Source: Kiritimatiellia bacterium (GTDB lineage Bacteria; Verrucomicrobiota; Kiritimatiellia; SLAD01). From it: a DNA stretch of 32,976 nucleotides. The stretch's first letter is position 1. Every line of letters starts with the position of its first letter. Positions 23,103-31,998 of the stretch are shown here, piece after piece. Location: NCBI GenBank assembly GCA_007123265.1, contig SKLK01000159.1:1-32976 (forward strand). The letters are read 5' to 3'. The position numbers and the translations under genes were made by a program. The notes beneath the pieces were generated by a model. The model was not told where the DNA came from and made no database searches. It worked only from the letters and a program-made list of their open reading frames with translations.

Positions 23103-24080
23103 TCACGGGCGCTCAAAATAAGCGATTCGTTGCCTGGTGTCGAACGTGACGATGAACCGGTTGAGCACATGGCCTCCGATTCGGGGCAAGTCCGGAATTC
23201 CCAAAGCCAAGGTTTCGACATCGGTGTGCGCAACGTTTCTCAACACCAGATCGCCGATCATGACCTGTCGGGCATGGGATGGCAGGTCCAGGTTGGAGGC
23301 CAACGCGAATTCGCCCAAACTATCAAGGGCAAACAGCGTTTCCATGCCGTCGATGTATCCTTCAAGCACAAAAATACCGAAATAGTCCCGCAACGGCACT
23401 TGCGCGATTAAGCGCTCAGCGTCGGGTTTATAAGGGTTAGTCGTGGAGAACAGGATGGTTCGATTCGGAAAGTCGATTTGGACGAAATGAAAGGCCCGGA
23501 TAAAGTCGCCGCCAAGGATCAACGGCACATCCATTTTCAGGTCTCGTTTCAGGATGTCGAGGGGACCGTGGGCGGCCTTGACATAGACCAAGGCGGTATC
23601 GACATGCAGACCATTGATGACCAGACGCGATACCACGCTCAAATAGCCCGGCACCGCATCGCGCACATGTGCGGGAAAGAGTCGATGGGGCGGGGGGCCG
23701 ATGGGAATGATGCCTTCCCGTTCGGACAAGCCGAATTCCACCCAGTTGGCGCGGGCACTGGTGTCGAGTAGCGCGGTGTACTCCTGCGCGCCGCGCATCC
23801 GCACCACCAGGGCGGGCACGGTGGAATCGCGTCGTCCCTGAAACTCAACGCGCGCGAATCGATCGGCATGGACCCGGTTTCCACCGGTAAAGACCGGACC
23901 GAAATCGGACTCGTAGCGAGTCAACCAGAAGCGGCGCTCATCCTGAGCCCGTGAAAAGAACACCTCGCGATCCCGCGCGGAGAGCGGCGTAATCGTGGGG
24001 GCCTTGCGGCTGGCACAGCCGAAGCTGGTTCCCACGAATAGGACCAGCATGATCCAGCGGATGCAGGATGCAGCATTCAC
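23103..24080 (-). CDS. Two-lobed retropepsin/pepsin-like putative aspartyl protease lipoprotein
   Basis: Signal/lipobox VGTSFGC; lobe 1 ALLDTSARANWVEF ... LILGGDFIRAFHFVQIDFPNRTILF; lobe 2 LFALDSLGEFALASNL ... IGGHVLNRFIVTFDTRQRIAYF. Confidence 0.65.
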   Translation of the reverse strand: MNAASCIRWIMLVLFVGTSFGCASRKAPTITPLSARDREVFFSRAQDERRFWLTRYESDFGPVFTGGNRVHADRFARVEFQGRRDSTVPALVVRMRGAQEYTALLDTSARANWVEFGLSEREGIIPIGPPPHRLFPAHVRDAVPGYLSVVSRLVINGLHVDTALVYVKAAHGPLDILKRDLKMDVPLILGGDFIRAFHFVQIDFPNRTILFSTTNPYKPDAERLIAQVPLRDYFGIFVLEGYIDGMETLFALDSLGEFALASNLDLPSHARQVMIGDLVLRNVAHTDVETLALGIPDLPRIGGHVLNRFIVTFDTRQRIAYFERP

Positions 24081-24161: not shown

Positions 24162-24986
24162 CTAAGTCTTTTCAGCCTCATTATCCGGAGCGTCCTCGTT
24201 GGGGGGATCGGTATCATCCGGAACATCCGGTTCGGCTGCTGAGTCGGTTTCCTCTTCGGGGCGGGTCGGTGCCCGGGCCTCCACATAGGCATTCAAGCCG
24301 GCACCTTCTTCGACCGCCAAATGCGCGGTCTTAATGCGGCCCAGCAAGTGCCCGGTGGCCCGCACGGTAACATGCCCCGAAGCCTCAATATCCGCCTTCA
24401 ATTCACCGGCCACGTCGACATCACCCAACTTCATCGGCGAATGAAAGTCATGCGAAGCGCCGGGACCGATGCGCAAGTCGCGCGTATCGATCATCGCCTC
24501 AGGTATCACAGCGCCTTGCACCAGCTCCAGACTGCGGTAGGCCTTCAGCACACCGGACTTGGCGGTGCCCTCGAGCACAATGTGATTCGCGGTAATCGAG
24601 CCTCCGTCCAGAATAGCGCTTTTGGTTAATACCACCTTGCCTGCCGTCACCAACTCGTCACTGAATCCTCCCGTAATCTTCTCATCTTTCAGGCTGAGCC
24701 GGGCTCCGCATTTCGGGCATTGGGTGACCTCTGCGCGACCCCGCATGACGAATTGAAACTGGCAGGTATAACAGACGATGTCGTTTTGGGTCGGCATCAC
24801 CGTCCGGCCAATATTCATGGCCTTGCGGGGCGTACCCTTGCGGGCCTCGGCGCGCTTGGCCTCCAGCTCCTCATCCACCTCGGGTTTGGCGGAATACCGT
24901 TTTTCGCGCTGATGGAGCTGGGTCGCCCGTAAGGTAACGAGCCCGTCCACAAACTTTGTTTTGCCACGTTCAGGCATGGGCAGCAC
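24162..24986 (-). CDS. Bactofilin-type (polymer-forming cytoskeletal) protein with N-terminal zinc ribbon
   Basis: CYTCQFQFVMRGRAEVTQCPKCG (CxxC...CxxC) followed by repetitive beta-helix-like VTAGKVVLTKSAILDGGSITANHIVLEGTAKSGVLKAYRSLELVQGAVIPEAMIDTRDLRIGPGA; acidic C-tail. Met at 24977 also possible. Confidence 0.75.
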   Translation of the reverse strand: MLPMPERGKTKFVDGLVTLRATQLHQREKRYSAKPEVDEELEAKRAEARKGTPRKAMNIGRTVMPTQNDIVCYTCQFQFVMRGRAEVTQCPKCGARLSLKDEKITGGFSDELVTAGKVVLTKSAILDGGSITANHIVLEGTAKSGVLKAYRSLELVQGAVIPEAMIDTRDLRIGPGASHDFHSPMKLGDVDVAGELKADIEASGHVTVRATGHLLGRIKTAHLAVEEGAGLNAYVEARAPTRPEEETDSAAEPDVPDDTDPPNEDAPDNEAEKT

Positions 24987-25155
24987 TCAACCAATGATGG
25001 CGGTCGGCGAACCAACGGTATGCGTCAGGCCCGGCACAGACTTCCATGACGGGGTGAGCGAAAGCGATCGGACGACATACCGTGCGTACGCGCATAAGGC
25101 CACATCGGCTATCCCGTTCGCCACCTTTGAGGTGCGCGCACGGGGCACAATCCTA

Positions 25156-25557
25156 TTACTTCGTGGATTCGCCGGGTTTGGCCGTCAGCTTGCCCGGTGC
25201 AAAAGAACTGCTCCCTGCCGGTTGTCCGGACGGGTTGACCTCGGAATGGCCCACAAAGGTGACGCCGTCTTCAACCGTCAAACGCTTGGCCTTGATATCG
25301 CCGTTGACACGCGCTGAAGCGAGCATTTGAATCCGGTCCTTGGCGGTAATGTTGCCGTTTACCGCTCCTTCGATGGAGACGGAATCGACGGTTAGATTGC
25401 CTTTGATTGTGGCGCTCTTGCCGATAGTGGTCTGGCCGTCACATTGCAGATCACCGTCCAGCTTGCCATTAAACTGGATTGAGCCTGAGGTTTTGATCGA
25501 TCCGGTGATTTCCACTTCGGACGAGATAACCGTTTCTGCGGGTTTGGTGCTTTCCAT
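25156..25557 (-). CDS. Bactofilin (polymer-forming cytoskeletal protein)
   Basis: SSEVEITGSIKTSGSIQFNGKLDGDLQCDGQTTIGKSATIKGNLTVDSVSIEGAVNGNITAKDRIQMLASARVNGDIKAKRLTVEDGVTFVG, typical bactofilin beta-helix. Confidence 0.9.
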   Translation of the reverse strand: MESTKPAETVISSEVEITGSIKTSGSIQFNGKLDGDLQCDGQTTIGKSATIKGNLTVDSVSIEGAVNGNITAKDRIQMLASARVNGDIKAKRLTVEDGVTFVGHSEVNPSGQPAGSSSFAPGKLTAKPGESTK

Positions 25558-25592
25558 GTGCATTTCCTCTTTCGGGTTGCGTTACGGGTTGA

Positions 25593-28500
25593 TTAATCCT
25601 TTTCCGGCGATGACGAATCCGTATCCTCGCCCGACGCTGCGCTATCGTCCGGCGCTGCAGGTGTTGACTCGTCGTCGGCAGGTGCCGGTGCCTCTGTTTC
25701 CGCGATCGGTCGCTCGCTCCGGACAGGCTTGGCGGAGGTCTGTCCGCGGGCGGACTGCAACTGCTTCAGACGCTTGGCCAGCACGGCCTCTTTGTGTCGC
25801 AACCGTTCCAGCTCATCGTCGGCCATCTTCTGTTGATGGCTCATGGCGCGTTCCTGCCGTCGCAGCGCACTTTGCGCTTCGCTGAGCGACTTCTTCAGGG
25901 CTTGTAGCTCCGCTTCCCGTTTGCGTCGTTGCTCGCGTTCCGTCTCATAGAATTTGCGTTGCTGTTCCAGCCGCATTTGCGCGCCTTTGCTCTCCTGCTC
26001 CAGTTGGATGACACGGTATTGCAAATTCTCTACATCCAGCACGCGTGCCTCTTGTTCCTCGCGCAATTGTTCGCGCTGTTGTTCCAAATCGCCTTCCGCA
26101 CGTGCGAGTTGCGATTCCAGGCGCTGGCCTTCCTCCCTGGCCTGATCCAGTTGCTGCTGCGCCTCCTCCAATTGGGCGTTGTATTCATGGATGCGCTCAT
26201 CCGCTTCGCGTTCGATGCGGGCGGCTTCCTGTCGCGCCTCGTCAAGGGCCGCCTGCCATTCGGTCTGTGCAGCCTCGGCCTCAGCTTGCGAACGATGCAG
26301 CTCGGCTTCGGCGCGCGCGGCTTCGGAGCGGGCGGTGGCCGTGGCATCCTGCTCTTCCCGAATCAGGTTCTGCAACTCCTGAATGGATTCCTGCGCATCG
26401 CGGATCTGATTTTCCAATTCGAGCACCGTCGCCTCAGACGCTTGGCGCCGGGTCAATTCCTCGCCGTAGGTCTTGCGGGTTTGCGCCAATTCGGCGTCGC
26501 GCCGCTGAGCCCGGTCCCATTCATCTTCAAGCAAGGACTTGTATTGCTGCACATCTGCTTCCAGCTGGGCCATACGCGCTTGTCGATCGGCGTCCTCTTT
26601 CTTCATTTCCTCCGCTGCCGCGGCGAGCGCCCGTTCCTGTTCGGCGAGCTCGGCGACGCGTTGATCGGCTGTGGCAACCTGCTCCTCCAAGTCGGCGATG
26701 CGCTGACCCGCTTCCGCTTGCGCTTCCAATAGGGGGGCGCGCTCGGCTTCCCATGCTGTCTCGCGCTGTTCCAACTCCCACTGCGCCTGATCGGCCCGGG
26801 TGCTGGCTTCGCGAAGGGATTCCCGCAATTGTTGAATCTCAGCGGTCGCTTCCTCTTCGCGCGCTTGTGCATCCTCCTGCTCGCGCTCGCGCTCGGCGCG
26901 TACACTGGCGAGTTCGGCTTCGGCCTGTTCCGCTTGTTCACGAATTTCCGCATCGGTGCGGGCCTGCTCATCCAGCTGCAGTTGCAGGGTATGTACCTCG
27001 TCGGCTAATCGCTGGGCTTCCGCTTCGGAACGTTGCAGACGATCTTGGAGCAACTGTTCTGTTTGGCGGGCATGCTCTTCGATCTGAGCCACACGTTCGC
27101 GCTGCTGTTGACCGATATCTTCCTTCTCTGCAATGGTGTCGCGGGCCGCATGCAATTGTGCGGTTAAATGCGTGATCTTTTCTTCCAGTCCGCGGGTGCG
27201 CAACTCGCTTTCATCCTGCTGCGAGCGTAAGCTGTCGATTTCGTTCTGCAACATGCGTTCTTTGGCCGCAGCGGCCTCGCGCAGTCGTTCGGTTTCGGCT
27301 ACTTGTTGAGCCAATTCCTCGATCTTCTGGTTTTCGATTGCAGTGGCCAATTCCTGTTCCAACCGTTGGACCTCGGATTCGAGGCTGCGTTGGGTACGCT
27401 GCAATTCGGATTGGACTTCGCGCAATTGCTCCCGTTGCCGTTCCAGTTGCTGATCCTTCTCGTTCAGCACACCCTCGGTCACTTGCAACCGGCCTTCGGC
27501 TTCATCCCGCTGCGCGCTCAGTTCCTGGATCCGGCGAGAGGCCGCGCTGTCGCTTTGTTGGGCCTCTAAATCAGCCACTTTGCCTTGCCACTCACTCAGT
27601 TGTTCTTCAGCCGAACGACGTGACTCCGTCAATTCGCTGCGTAGTTGTTCCACCTCGTCCGCCGCGGATTGAAGCGATTCGATTTGCTGTTGAAGCTGTT
27701 GATTCTGCTCGGTGAGCGATTGAATCTGTTCATTTTGTTCCGCCTCAGCGCCCGTGTTTACGGCGAGAACCTCGGCCTTTGCCGTCTCCAATTCGCGTTC
27801 CAACTCTTCGATTCGCACTTGCGACTGCTGGATGCGCTGCTCCGCGGCCGCCACGGCCTCATCGGCAGAGTGGGCGCTACTTTGCCGCAAACGATCCATT
27901 TCCTGGCGCAGTTCCTCTTGTTGCCGTTGAGCGGCTTGTTTCGCTTCTTGCAATTGGGCTTCGAGGGCTTCTTCCCGCTGCCGGTACTCCGCTTGCAGTG
28001 CCTCCGACTGTTCCTTCGCTTGCTGTTGTGCCGCCGTCACGGCCACATCGGTGGACTGGGCGCTGCTTTGCCGTAAGCGATCCAATTCCTGCTGCAGTTC
28101 CTCTTGTTCCCGTTGGGCGGCTTGTTTCGCTTCTTGCAATTGGGCTTCGAGGGCTTCTTCCCGCTGGCGGTGCTCCGCTTGCAGCGCCTCCGCCTGTTCC
28201 TTCGCTTGCTGTTGTGCAGCCGCCAACTCTTCGCGGACGCGTTCCAGTTCACGGGCCGATGCGTCGGAATCCGCAGCGGTCGTTGCAGGGGCTGCGTCCC
28301 GCATTAAGCCGCCAATCTTGGGTTTGCTGCGGGGCGGGGCGGAAGCGGGGGCGGTGTCCGGTTTGGATTCCGCTTCGCCGGTCAGCAATTCCCCAACCGT
28401 CATGGAAGCTCCAGACGTCTTGTGCGTGGCTTTGCCGTCGGCTTTGACGGCGCCGCTTTCGAGGAAGTCCCGGGCGGCGTCACGGTTAATGGGGCCAAAG

Positions 28501-28721
28501 GTCTTGCCGTTAGCGAGTTCAATCATCCAGTCCATTCCCAAGACCTTTAGCTCTTCGACCGGGGTCCAGAGCTGTTTGTCCTGAGAGACCTTATTGCCCG
28601 GCGCAATCCGGCAATTGCTGGCCCAGCTTTGCAGTTGGTCAAGGGTAATGGGGCCGTACACATCGCCGTCGTCGGTCTGCAAATACCACGTGGATGCAGG
28701 GTCTAGGTTGTCCGTTGGCAT
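25593..28721 (-). CDS. Large coiled-coil protein with N-terminal GYF_2-like (DUF4339-type) domains
   Basis: N-terminus WYLQTDDGDVYGPITLDQLQSWASNCRIAPGNKVSQDKQLWTPVEEL plus a second, shorter GxxFGPI segment; about 800 aa of E/Q/R/A/L-rich heptad-like sequence; acidic tail. GTG/ATG-proximal region fits ATG at 28721. Confidence 0.8.
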   Translation of the reverse strand: MPTDNLDPASTWYLQTDDGDVYGPITLDQLQSWASNCRIAPGNKVSQDKQLWTPVEELKVLGMDWMIELANGKTFGPINRDAARDFLESGAVKADGKATHKTSGASMTVGELLTGEAESKPDTAPASAPPRSKPKIGGLMRDAAPATTAADSDASARELERVREELAAAQQQAKEQAEALQAEHRQREEALEAQLQEAKQAAQREQEELQQELDRLRQSSAQSTDVAVTAAQQQAKEQSEALQAEYRQREEALEAQLQEAKQAAQRQQEELRQEMDRLRQSSAHSADEAVAAAEQRIQQSQVRIEELERELETAKAEVLAVNTGAEAEQNEQIQSLTEQNQQLQQQIESLQSAADEVEQLRSELTESRRSAEEQLSEWQGKVADLEAQQSDSAASRRIQELSAQRDEAEGRLQVTEGVLNEKDQQLERQREQLREVQSELQRTQRSLESEVQRLEQELATAIENQKIEELAQQVAETERLREAAAAKERMLQNEIDSLRSQQDESELRTRGLEEKITHLTAQLHAARDTIAEKEDIGQQQRERVAQIEEHARQTEQLLQDRLQRSEAEAQRLADEVHTLQLQLDEQARTDAEIREQAEQAEAELASVRAEREREQEDAQAREEEATAEIQQLRESLREASTRADQAQWELEQRETAWEAERAPLLEAQAEAGQRIADLEEQVATADQRVAELAEQERALAAAAEEMKKEDADRQARMAQLEADVQQYKSLLEDEWDRAQRRDAELAQTRKTYGEELTRRQASEATVLELENQIRDAQESIQELQNLIREEQDATATARSEAARAEAELHRSQAEAEAAQTEWQAALDEARQEAARIEREADERIHEYNAQLEEAQQQLDQAREEGQRLESQLARAEGDLEQQREQLREEQEARVLDVENLQYRVIQLEQESKGAQMRLEQQRKFYETEREQRRKREAELQALKKSLSEAQSALRRQERAMSHQQKMADDELERLRHKEAVLAKRLKQLQSARGQTSAKPVRSERPIAETEAPAPADDESTPAAPDDSAASGEDTDSSSPEKD
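27849..28220 (-). repeat. Tandem 2 x 186 bp (62-aa) repeat inside the coiled-coil gene
   Basis: AAQQQAKEQAEALQAEHRQREEALEAQLQEAKQAAQREQEELQQELDRLRQSSAQSTDVAVT is followed by a near-identical copy; the DNA string GGGCTTCGAGGGCTTCTTCCCGCTG recurs at 27956 and 28142 (186-bp period). Confidence 0.9.
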
Positions 28722-28778
28722 GGTAAATTCCTCTTGCTTGGGTACCTGCGGGATCGTCCCGCGTTTTCACGTGCTATC

Positions 28779-28807
28779 GTTGTAGAAAGTGCAGGCGGTC
28801 GAGTAAA
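28779..28807 (-). promoter_or_regulatory. Candidate promoter of the coiled-coil gene (TTTACT -N17- TACAAC)
   Basis: Read on - strand at 28807-28802 and 28784-28779; 4/6 matches each; followed by a GCGGGATCGTCCCGC hairpin (28748-28762) in the leader. Confidence 0.25.
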
Positions 28808-28853
28808 GCAAAAACAAGGACGCTAAAGCGAAAGAACGCCGGATCGAGGCGAT

Positions 28854-29795
28854 TCACGATCCCGGTTCGCGCGGGGGTGGGGGCGGATGGACCGTAAAGG
28901 TCGTCTCCTTTTCCGCCGTTTGCCCGCTGACCTGATCGGTCAACCGGACCCAGACCCGGTACTCACCGGGGTCAATCCGGCGTGTCGGCTGGAGTGGGTA
29001 GGAGGAATAGAAATCGCGGCGCGGGCTTAAGCCTCGCTCAATCAAGGATACCGAGGTGTCCATCAATGGCTCCGAGCGGCCAATATCTTCCCGGTACAAC
29101 ACAATCCGCTTCGTCAGTTGATAGACCTTGCGCTCGTCGGTGCGTGTTTCCGGGCGCGGATTGACCAGTTCGGTGTAGACATAGATATGCGGCACATGCC
29201 GCGGCAGAATGGGGATATCAGGTAACCGGTCGAATTGGCCGAACCCGCTCACGTGCCGCACCAGTTCGATGCGTGGAATCGCGAAGCGATCGATGGGTTC
29301 GGGGTACAGGGCCGGGTCTTCGCGGGACAGGCGACCGCTCGCATCTGTCGTATCCCGTTCCGTGGAATCGATACCGGCGGCTGGAGGGTAGGGTGGATCG
29401 GACTGCGGGTGGACCTTGTGGCGCCAGAAAAGCGGCACAATCAAGAAAATCAGCGTTACATTCAAGATCACCAGCAAGGCGATGGTTACCACCAGCCAGC
29501 GTGAACGGCTGGGCTGGGACAGGTTAACCGATGGGGCGTCGGACGACTCAGGCGCGGTGTCTAGTGGCTCCGGTTGCGCAGCGGGCAGGGGGGCTGGCGA
29601 ATGCGCCGGTTCAGGATCAGGCGTGTTGGACGCGCCGGATTTCGGCACCCGCAATCTGGACTTAGGTGGCCGATTGACCGGACCAACTGCAGGTGAGGAG
29701 GGCGAGTCCTGCAGCAGGCGGTCAATAATTTTGGGCGGCGCCAGATGCCCCGCATCCCAGGCCGGCGGTTGTGACTGGGATTGATCGGGGACCAT
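28854..29795 (-). CDS. Hypothetical bitopic membrane protein: Pro-rich N-terminal tail, one TM, C-terminal beta-sandwich-like domain
   Basis: 313 aa; TM WLVVTIALLVILNVTLIFLIVPLFW at about aa 100-124; Pro-rich tails; C-terminal GEYRVWVRLTDQVSGQTAEKETTFTV resembles Ig/CARDB-like beta strands. Confidence 0.7.
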   Translation of the reverse strand: MVPDQSQSQPPAWDAGHLAPPKIIDRLLQDSPSSPAVGPVNRPPKSRLRVPKSGASNTPDPEPAHSPAPLPAAQPEPLDTAPESSDAPSVNLSQPSRSRWLVVTIALLVILNVTLIFLIVPLFWRHKVHPQSDPPYPPAAGIDSTERDTTDASGRLSREDPALYPEPIDRFAIPRIELVRHVSGFGQFDRLPDIPILPRHVPHIYVYTELVNPRPETRTDERKVYQLTKRIVLYREDIGRSEPLMDTSVSLIERGLSPRRDFYSSYPLQPTRRIDPGEYRVWVRLTDQVSGQTAEKETTFTVHPPPPPREPGS

Positions 29796-30582: not shown

Positions 30583-31998
30583 TCAGTCAGGCTTTGAAAG
30601 CAGACCGAATTGTGCGATGCCCAAGACCACCCAGCCCGACATTACAATAAATGTGAAGATGAGGATCGGAACCGGGCCGAATTGTGCAATCAACGGCAGC
30701 GATGCCGCTGTGAATAGGCCCCCGCCGACCACCGGCTCGAATAGCAATTGTTTGTAGCCGAAACTGTGCATCGCGCCGGTGCGGTTTTGGGGATCGGTCA
30801 TGCGGATTAGGAGCAGGCCGATCACGGTCATGCCCATACACTGGCCAAAGTTGGCCAGCCCATACGGGACCCAGTGTTTTTTGAACAAACGAGGCGCCAA
30901 CCAGATGAACATCGCCACATTCCAAAGGATCCCCGCGACGGCGAGTACCATGAACGGCCCGAATTGGGCGCCGATTGCAGCCAGTGAGATAGTGGCTAAT
31001 GCCGATACAATCAGCACATCCAAGGCCGTGCCTGACACGCGATTCACCAATTGACGATCCACGCGCTGGCCGAGGCCCGAGTAATCCAGTCCCAACTGGA
31101 GCAGCACGCCGCCGATCATCGCCAGCGGGAAGAGTGGAATGTGGCGCATCAGTTCGAGCCCACCCGACGCACCCCAGGTCACCGCCTCTAGTCCCATCAG
31201 GCCTTGATGCAGCAACCAGCCGATGCCAATCGCGATACCGATATAGCCCAGGTGCACGGAGAGCGGATCGATCATGTGCCGATTGCCGCTCGTTGAAACT
31301 TCATCTTTCTCGCGCTCATCGTGTTCGGCCATTTGCTCGCGATCTGCTTCCGACAATTCACCCGGCGCTTTGAGGTGCCCTTTGCGGACCGCCCAATTGA
31401 CGAGCACGGTACCGATCAATACACCGGCCACGACACCGATGGTGGCCAGGCCCAAGGCGAGGTCGGCGCCACTCTCGAAGCCCAATTCAGCGAAGGTATC
31501 CGCCAATCCCGCAGCCGTGCCGTGTCCGCCCTCGAAGCTGATTTCGATCAGCGCACCGGACAGCGGGCTGATTCCCCAGATGGGCCCGAGCAAAAGCAGA
31601 AAGAGAGTCAGTCCCACTACATATTGTCCCCAGGCGATGATCTGCCCATGCACCACCATCGGTCCGGCGTCCCGCCAGATTGTGCGCGGCGGCGCAATGG
31701 ATTTGCCAATGAACAGGGCGGCAAAAACGACATTGATGAGGAGGCTGGGCAATCGGGACCAGACATCCATCAGGGCTTGGGGAAATAGACCATCTGCCAG
31801 CCGCACGTCCTCCCCGCCCAACGCAACCACTATGCGACCCAAAATTTCAGGACCAACAACCAGGGCAATTCCCCCGGCTAAGATAGAGCTGGGCAGATAC
31901 AAGTTCTGGAAGAGCTTCACATTCGCCCTCAGTAGCTTGCCGGCCAGCAGTAAAATGGTGATCAACACCATCGCCCAAAACACATCGTTCATCGTCAT
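30583..31998 (-). CDS. Sodium/glutamate symporter family protein (GltS-like)
   Basis: MNDVFWAMVLITILLLAGKLLRANVKLFQNLYLPSSILAGGIALVVGPEILG, GPIWGISPLSGALIEISFEGGHGTAAGLADTF; hydrophobic 471-aa protein. Confidence 0.82.
   Translation of the reverse strand: MTMNDVFWAMVLITILLLAGKLLRANVKLFQNLYLPSSILAGGIALVVGPEILGRIVVALGGEDVRLADGLFPQALMDVWSRLPSLLINVVFAALFIGKSIAPPRTIWRDAGPMVVHGQIIAWGQYVVGLTLFLLLLGPIWGISPLSGALIEISFEGGHGTAAGLADTFAELGFESGADLALGLATIGVVAGVLIGTVLVNWAVRKGHLKAPGELSEADREQMAEHDEREKDEVSTSGNRHMIDPLSVHLGYIGIAIGIGWLLHQGLMGLEAVTWGASGGLELMRHIPLFPLAMIGGVLLQLGLDYSGLGQRVDRQLVNRVSGTALDVLIVSALATISLAAIGAQFGPFMVLAVAGILWNVAMFIWLAPRLFKKHWVPYGLANFGQCMGMTVIGLLLIRMTDPQNRTGAMHSFGYKQLLFEPVVGGGLFTAASLPLIAQFGPVPILIFTFIVMSGWVVLGIAQFGLLSKPD

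Follow-up and report, generated by a model that had tools for sequence, protein, structure and literature searches.

Four consecutive genes of an uncultured kiritimatiellial bacterium encode two bactofilins, a bitopic membrane protein and a giant protein with tandem GYF domains followed by a long coiled coil (GYFcc). Their conserved arrangement within one bacterial family (f1) gives good support to the view that they form a functional unit. It is reasonable to infer that the block is a scaffold attached to the membrane, and we would give an even chance to the more specific proposal of a family-specific envelope scaffold that was built from two older modules, namely a bactofilin pair and GYFcc with its membrane partner. 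The window, meaning the whole stretch of 32,976 nucleotides analysed here, is an entire contig (C79) of a 2.43 Mb, 89%-complete genome. The initial annotation had described four consecutive same-strand genes for two bactofilins, a GYF_2/coiled-coil giant and a bitopic protein, a gene content that our ORF calls and Pfam searches confirmed, with all four ORFs located on the minus strand at the positions it had given. In gene order these are the bitopic protein (313 aa, 28854..29795), GYFcc (1042 aa, 25593..28721), the plain bactofilin BacA (135 aa, 25156..25563) and the zinc-ribbon bactofilin BacB (274 aa, 24162..24986), with gaps of 132, 29 and 178 bp between successive genes. ORFs were called by simple rules, and conservation of start positions suggests that the real start of BacB is probably the ATG at 24977. 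Scans of the locus for promoters and terminators returned signals no more frequent than in shuffled sequences.

The surroundings of the block contain several genes with positions or products of their own. The bitopic gene is preceded, at a distance of 26 bp, by an outer-membrane barrel gene that is not conserved at this position in relatives. The gene after bacB (23103-24080) encodes a lipoprotein-like product that matched neither Pfam nor NCBIfam families and by eye resembles a retropepsin-type aspartyl protease. This gene is not conserved at the cluster, and is followed by a potABCD-like polyamine transporter. At 30583-31998 the window encodes a large symporter matching Glt_symporter, whose score of 45.8 bits against a gltS equivalog cut-off of 310.75 indicates that it is probably a divergent subfamily.

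Family f1 was represented by 11 sampled genomes, all of them incomplete and fragmented metagenome assemblies. The order bitopic-GYFcc-bacA-bacB on one strand was found in seven of the nine that have the bitopic gene (G000, G024, G036, G048, G057, G067 and G077). In G007 the GYFcc-bacA-bacB part is intact and the bitopic gene lies on another contig beside other genes, while in G087 (76% complete) the bitopic gene has a similarly changed setting and GYFcc is on a separate contig; the bitopic gene is no longer part of the cluster in genus g2. Identity to the window proteins is 36-41% for the bitopic protein (within the family), 45-64% for BacB and 47-73% for BacA, and the genes flanking the block vary from genome to genome. 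Since order and strand are kept in seven genomes at about 36-73% identity while the flanks differ, the four-gene arrangement is not a matter of chance.

Outside f1 the picture is different. A search of 146 genomes of the class with the bitopic protein recovered the window genome, eight other f1 members and three distant genomes, all from family f12, and the linkage of bactofilins to GYFcc is known only in f1. In other families of the class, the two bactofilins occur without GYFcc and its membrane protein, and the latter two without the former; GYFcc pairs are present in G021 and G074, two genomes that yielded no bactofilin, and bactofilins where no GYFcc was found. A block spread broadly across the PVC bacteria was consequently rejected, as both modules lie at separate loci outside f1. 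The proposal of a membrane-attached cytoskeletal unit is thus partly supported: the expected conservation of neighbourhood holds inside the family, where a functional unit is well supported, and fails across PVC genomes at large. That first reading had missed that BacB has a zinc ribbon, that the bitopic protein bears a proline motif and that the block derives from two modules.

Both bactofilins exceeded the Pfam cut-off for PF04519 (27.9 bits), BacA with 93.0 bits over a domain at 25243-25533 and BacB with 53.7 bits, and the BacB profile also matched the bactofilin structure 6ria. BacB carries a C4 zinc ribbon (Cys 72, 75, 90 and 93; 24708..24773, minus strand) whose cysteines are invariant in the BacB alignment; across the class, the N-terminal pattern of two CxxC pairs is present in 43 of 44 BacB proteins versus none of 47 BacA proteins. 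An N-terminal membrane-targeting consensus like MFSKKKK is common, not universal, among bactofilins (PMC12448750). Such a sequence is absent here, where by eye the BacA orthologues begin ME/MD-like and those of BacB MxxRGK. Matches resembling BacB that start at the zinc ribbon extend beyond this class to others in the phylum, where they are present in many genomes of genus g95, and often have a second bactofilin match nearby.

Tandem organization of a plain and a zinc-ribbon bactofilin is not a peculiarity of the block. We inspected 40 further bactofilin loci, of which 37 were sites in other families that had been ranked as single-copy or ancestral and the rest were the second copies in f1; in most of them a short plain bactofilin immediately precedes a longer one. 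By sequence inspection of the neighbours, the pair usually has argC upstream and either parB with an M28-type peptidase, or mpl, downstream. In three f1 genomes (G057, G067 and G077) the mpl site and the cluster each hold a pair, whereas no bactofilins were found next to mpl in G000, G024, G036 and G048; for G007 the nearby contig end does not allow a judgement. The cluster copies make up a single clade (bootstrap/SH-aLRT 100/98) of the BacB tree, beside the mpl-linked copies of f1 and with all f1 copies together (100/99), and the BacA tree shows the same at lower support (88/91). Taken together, the trees, the two-pair genomes and the bare mpl sites indicate that the pair was duplicated in f1 and that one copy joined GYFcc. 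Several f1 members appear to have kept only the GYFcc-linked copy, and the block pair comprises the only bactofilins found in the genome of the window.

This history bears on a reading in which the cluster is one of convenience, co-transcribed, with the bactofilins keeping an ancestral and separate job in wall or chromosome organisation and making no contact with GYFcc. The separation of the two modules elsewhere is consistent with it, as is the fact that no other bactofilin pair was found in G000, G036, G048 and G007, where the cluster copy presumably covers the ancestral function. Nevertheless, the pair has been retained beside GYFcc throughout the divergence of f1 despite changing flanks, and the ancestral site still holds a second pair in three genomes, so that we regard a mere cohabitation of the genes as rather unlikely. 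We favour instead a physical association of the bactofilins with the GYFcc rod or its anchor, a claim that we consider about evenly poised.

The GYFcc protein has a clear modular composition. Pfam GYF_2 matched its N-terminus in two stretches with 31.8 bits (cut-off 25.8), and the tandem GYF-like domains (aa 12-115; 28377..28688, minus strand) were modelled by AlphaFold2 with a pLDDT of 85.7. The ten best PDB fold matches of this model were all GYF domains (E 0.03-0.1), two of them being those of Smy2, in complex with a proline-rich peptide, and of Myxococcus GltJ; the best PDB match by sequence was likewise the AgmX/GltJ GYF domain, at an E-value of 0.07 that is weak alone. Residues G23, P24, W33, R38, W52, W65, G76 and P77 are invariant. 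The GYF tripeptide itself is not conserved, being replaced by CRI/GRI, and the aromatic pocket is only partly conserved when compared with the residues that we take to be canonical. A proline segment, PPRSKPKI (aa 129-136; 28314..28337, minus strand), follows the GYF pair, and similar PPRS[KR]P-like segments are present in all seven full-block genomes (PPKSRP in G077); this segment is a possible internal or second GYF ligand.

Most of the remaining length corresponds to a predicted coiled-coil rod (aa 146-992; 25746..28286, minus strand), rich in E, K, R and Q and poor in P and G, with a longest P/G-free run of 178 aa. Its strongest hydrophobic period was 3.53 residues, with a power of 12.2 compared to a mean of 4.5 and a maximum of 13.0 among 500 shuffles, about one in 500 of which attains this signal. 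We estimate that the rod would measure about 0.12 micrometre if it were one continuous helix. The C-terminal coil segment (aa 880-990; 25752..26084, minus strand) is conserved, with 72% identity within f1 and 51% to f12 at aa 901-950. Near the other end of the rod, positions 27849-28220 (aa 168-291) encode two near-identical tandem copies of some 62 residues, AAQQQAKEQ[AS]EALQAE..., which represent a recent internal duplication.

No Pfam family was matched by the bitopic protein, which combines a proline-rich cytoplasmic tail, a single strongly hydrophobic segment predicted as a transmembrane helix (aa 102-120; 29436..29492, minus strand; Kyte-Doolittle mean 3.04 over 19 residues) and an extracytoplasmic all-beta sandwich (aa 158-313; 28857..29324, minus strand) modelled with a mean pLDDT of 93.4 by AlphaFold2. 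Homologues of the ectodomain possess lipobox-like or signal sequences, which places this domain outside the cytoplasm and the N-terminal tail inside. The ectodomain could not be assigned to a known fold, as its matches were generic Ig-like beta-sandwiches with TM-scores below 0.55. Nor is it widespread in the phylum: it was found in only nine of 388 genomes, eight of them in families f1 and f12.

The most conserved part of the tail is a short peptide of the form PPxI[LIV]D, PPKIIDRLL in the window (aa 20-28; 29712..29738, minus strand), which belongs to an N-terminus conserved in all nine f1 members. Pairwise identity is 57% in the motif block versus 27% in the remainder of the tail, and the variants encountered were PPKIIDRLL, PPVILDRLL, PPRILDRML, PPSILDRLL, PPSILDGVL, PPKILDRLL, PPKIIDQLM and PPKIVDQLF. 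The last of these, from G067, was read in another frame than the called ORF (L022:9552-10337 and upstream), an out-of-frame N-terminus that corresponds to a frameshift or an assembly error. Counting the motif at the DNA level in the genomes of the family was uninformative.

Proteins with GYF_2 domains are common in the class, and GYFcc regularly has a membrane neighbour there. In 18 genomes from ten families other than f1, GYFcc adjoins a single-pass protein with an N-terminal PPx-hydrophobic motif, exemplified by PPKLVSLQ (G027), PPKTLKQQI (G118), PPQVLREQV (G070), PPKYLRRQV (G013), PPKILKREI (G014), PPQALKQKV (G038) and PPKVVTRIA (G012). In its strict form the motif is present in 16 of 20 partners versus two of 867 other genes at the same loci, a comparison that is partly circular because the motif was drawn from the partners themselves. 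Most of these partners are homologous to one another. A profile of this partner family had no match in any f1 genome (0/11), and only the layout and the motif are common to the f1 bitopic protein and the class-wide partner. We therefore prefer to regard the f1 protein as a replacement that occupies the partner's place and bears the same motif, a very diverged version of the usual partner being the less probable alternative. Two f12 genomes have yet another protein as the motif-bearing neighbour of GYFcc, with the ectodomain encoded by a separate lipoprotein gene on the opposite side of GYFcc.

Other GYFcc loci showed features of their own. Outside f1, GYFcc often or usually lies directly downstream of a gene that by inspection is dnaE-like (loci L143, L144, L149, L151, L165, L169, L170, L173 and L174). 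Partners without the proline motif were found in families f25, f23 and f33 (L169, L170, L173, L174 and L176), and several of these partners begin with an EVLRLQAxALxRMSERM-like helix. Loss of W12 in the GYF domains that have a motif-less partner (three of five, versus none of the others) came mostly from one family and was not used as evidence. Finally, G080:C100, G118:C1 and G028:C42 encode long proteins that have several GYF pairs but lack a simple motif partner next to them, and these represent a second GYF architecture in the class.

Which component of the block might read the peptide on the bitopic tail deserves consideration. In Caulobacter, the bitopic PbpC binds polymerised BacA directly through its conserved N-terminal 13 residues with a KD of 4.9 uM, and a proline-rich stretch follows this peptide (PMC12448750). 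The f1 motif could by analogy be a bactofilin-docking peptide like region C1 of PbpC, with GYFcc binding something else, and both the identical layout of the two membrane proteins and the presence of bactofilins within the same cluster speak for it. The same type of motif, though, is found on GYFcc partners in G021 and G074, which yielded no bactofilin, and in most families the motif-bearing partners are encoded at loci away from bactofilins, which makes direct docking on bactofilins unlikely. GYFcc fits better as the motif reader because its pairing with the partner persists under precisely these circumstances. We therefore propose GYF docking onto the bitopic tail, with the bactofilins joining the rod or the anchor in f1, and we lean slightly towards this docking being real. 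Known GYF domains are readers of PPG-hydrophobic motifs (PMC12171015). The candidate ligand PPKI has no canonical glycine, the residues found in its place being K, Q, S, R and V; this non-canonical motif, the degenerate GYF signature and the motif-less partners of f25, f23 and f33 all argue against docking.

In the scaffold that we propose, the tandem GYF domains would bind the PPx-hydrophobic motif in the bitopic protein's cytoplasmic tail, tethering one end of the coiled-coil rod to the inner membrane, from where the rod might reach into the cytoplasm or along the membrane, while the beta-sandwich would face the periplasm. BacA and BacB would form a membrane-near polymer associated with the rod or the anchor, arranging many such tethers in a patch. 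The cargo would likely be envelope assembly, of wall or of surface polysaccharide, which is the weakest step of the scheme; any specific cellular role is far less secure than the associations themselves.

A more specific version, in which the module organises the export of surface polysaccharide rather than acting as a general shape scaffold, is possible because of two neighbourhoods only. In G067, Wza-like, beta-barrel and Wzc-like genes come directly after the bactofilin cluster (L022:2-5058), and in G038 a Wza/Wzy/Wzc-like cluster that also includes a beta-barrel gene (L026:2595-9939) begins with the ectodomain lipoprotein; moreover, the ectodomain weakly resembles, in fold and sequence, the carbohydrate-binding domain of Wzt and RbmA. 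The window contains no such genes and none were noted in the other cluster neighbourhoods, and the ectodomain fold matches are generic, so that we consider a dedicated export role quite improbable. Least of all is GYFcc an SMC/Rad50-like DNA protein, an idea that we rejected as exceedingly improbable given that NCBIfam SMC models reach 47.5 bits, far below their curated cut-off of 567 and in the coiled coil only, whereas the N-terminus is GYF and no ABC ATPase head was found.

Several known systems resemble parts of the envelope scaffold proposed here. Like the BacA-PbpC pair of Caulobacter, the block joins a bactofilin to a single-pass protein that has a conserved peptide at its N-terminus, a cytoplasmic tail rich in proline and a domain outside the cytoplasm; unlike that pair, it has no recognised enzyme domain, adds a giant GYF/coiled-coil protein and a zinc-ribbon bactofilin, and uses a type of motif that also exists in genomes where no bactofilin was found. 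The gliding motility protein GltJ/AgmX of Myxococcus likewise combines zinc-ribbon and GYF modules in one system, on a single membrane protein, whereas in the block BacB has the former and GYFcc the latter, and gliding genes were not observed. With the eukaryotic adaptors Smy2, GIGYF and CD2BP2 the block has in common the GYF fold and a Pro-Pro-x-hydrophobic partner motif, but differs in its glycine-less motif, its degenerate GYF signature and its bacterial membrane setting. Crescentin and FilP, which are intermediate-filament-like, offer a parallel in their long coiled coil and proposed cytoskeletal role; GYFcc is distinguished by its tandem GYF head and linked bactofilins, and filament formation by GYFcc is only putative. 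Within the literature searched, which largely excluded subscription papers, no paper joined bactofilins with a GYF domain or with Akkermansia, and none of the top-listed papers on zinc ribbons dealt with bactofilins. While the component families are known, the combination present in the block, the class-wide pairing of GYFcc with the motif and the tandem of plain and zinc-ribbon bactofilins thus appear to be undescribed.

Few bactofilin clients are known and the anchoring of bacterial coiled-coil rods is mostly an open question, for which the block offers a peptide-sized hypothesis, namely that the tail PPKIIDRLLQD is read by GYF domains. More tentatively, but still as a possibility worth weighing, GYF pairs on giant rods may recognise PPx-hydrophobic tails throughout the class, and f1 would have swapped the partner and recruited duplicated bactofilins to give a three-component envelope cytoskeleton. 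The block also appears to illustrate how a cytoskeletal cluster was put together from two older modules, in which one partner was replaced and the docking motif kept, against the background of a tandem plain and zinc-ribbon bactofilin pair common to a bacterial class. If true, the adaptor formed by GYFcc and the motif would be a bacterial counterpart of the eukaryotic GYF-proline adaptors.
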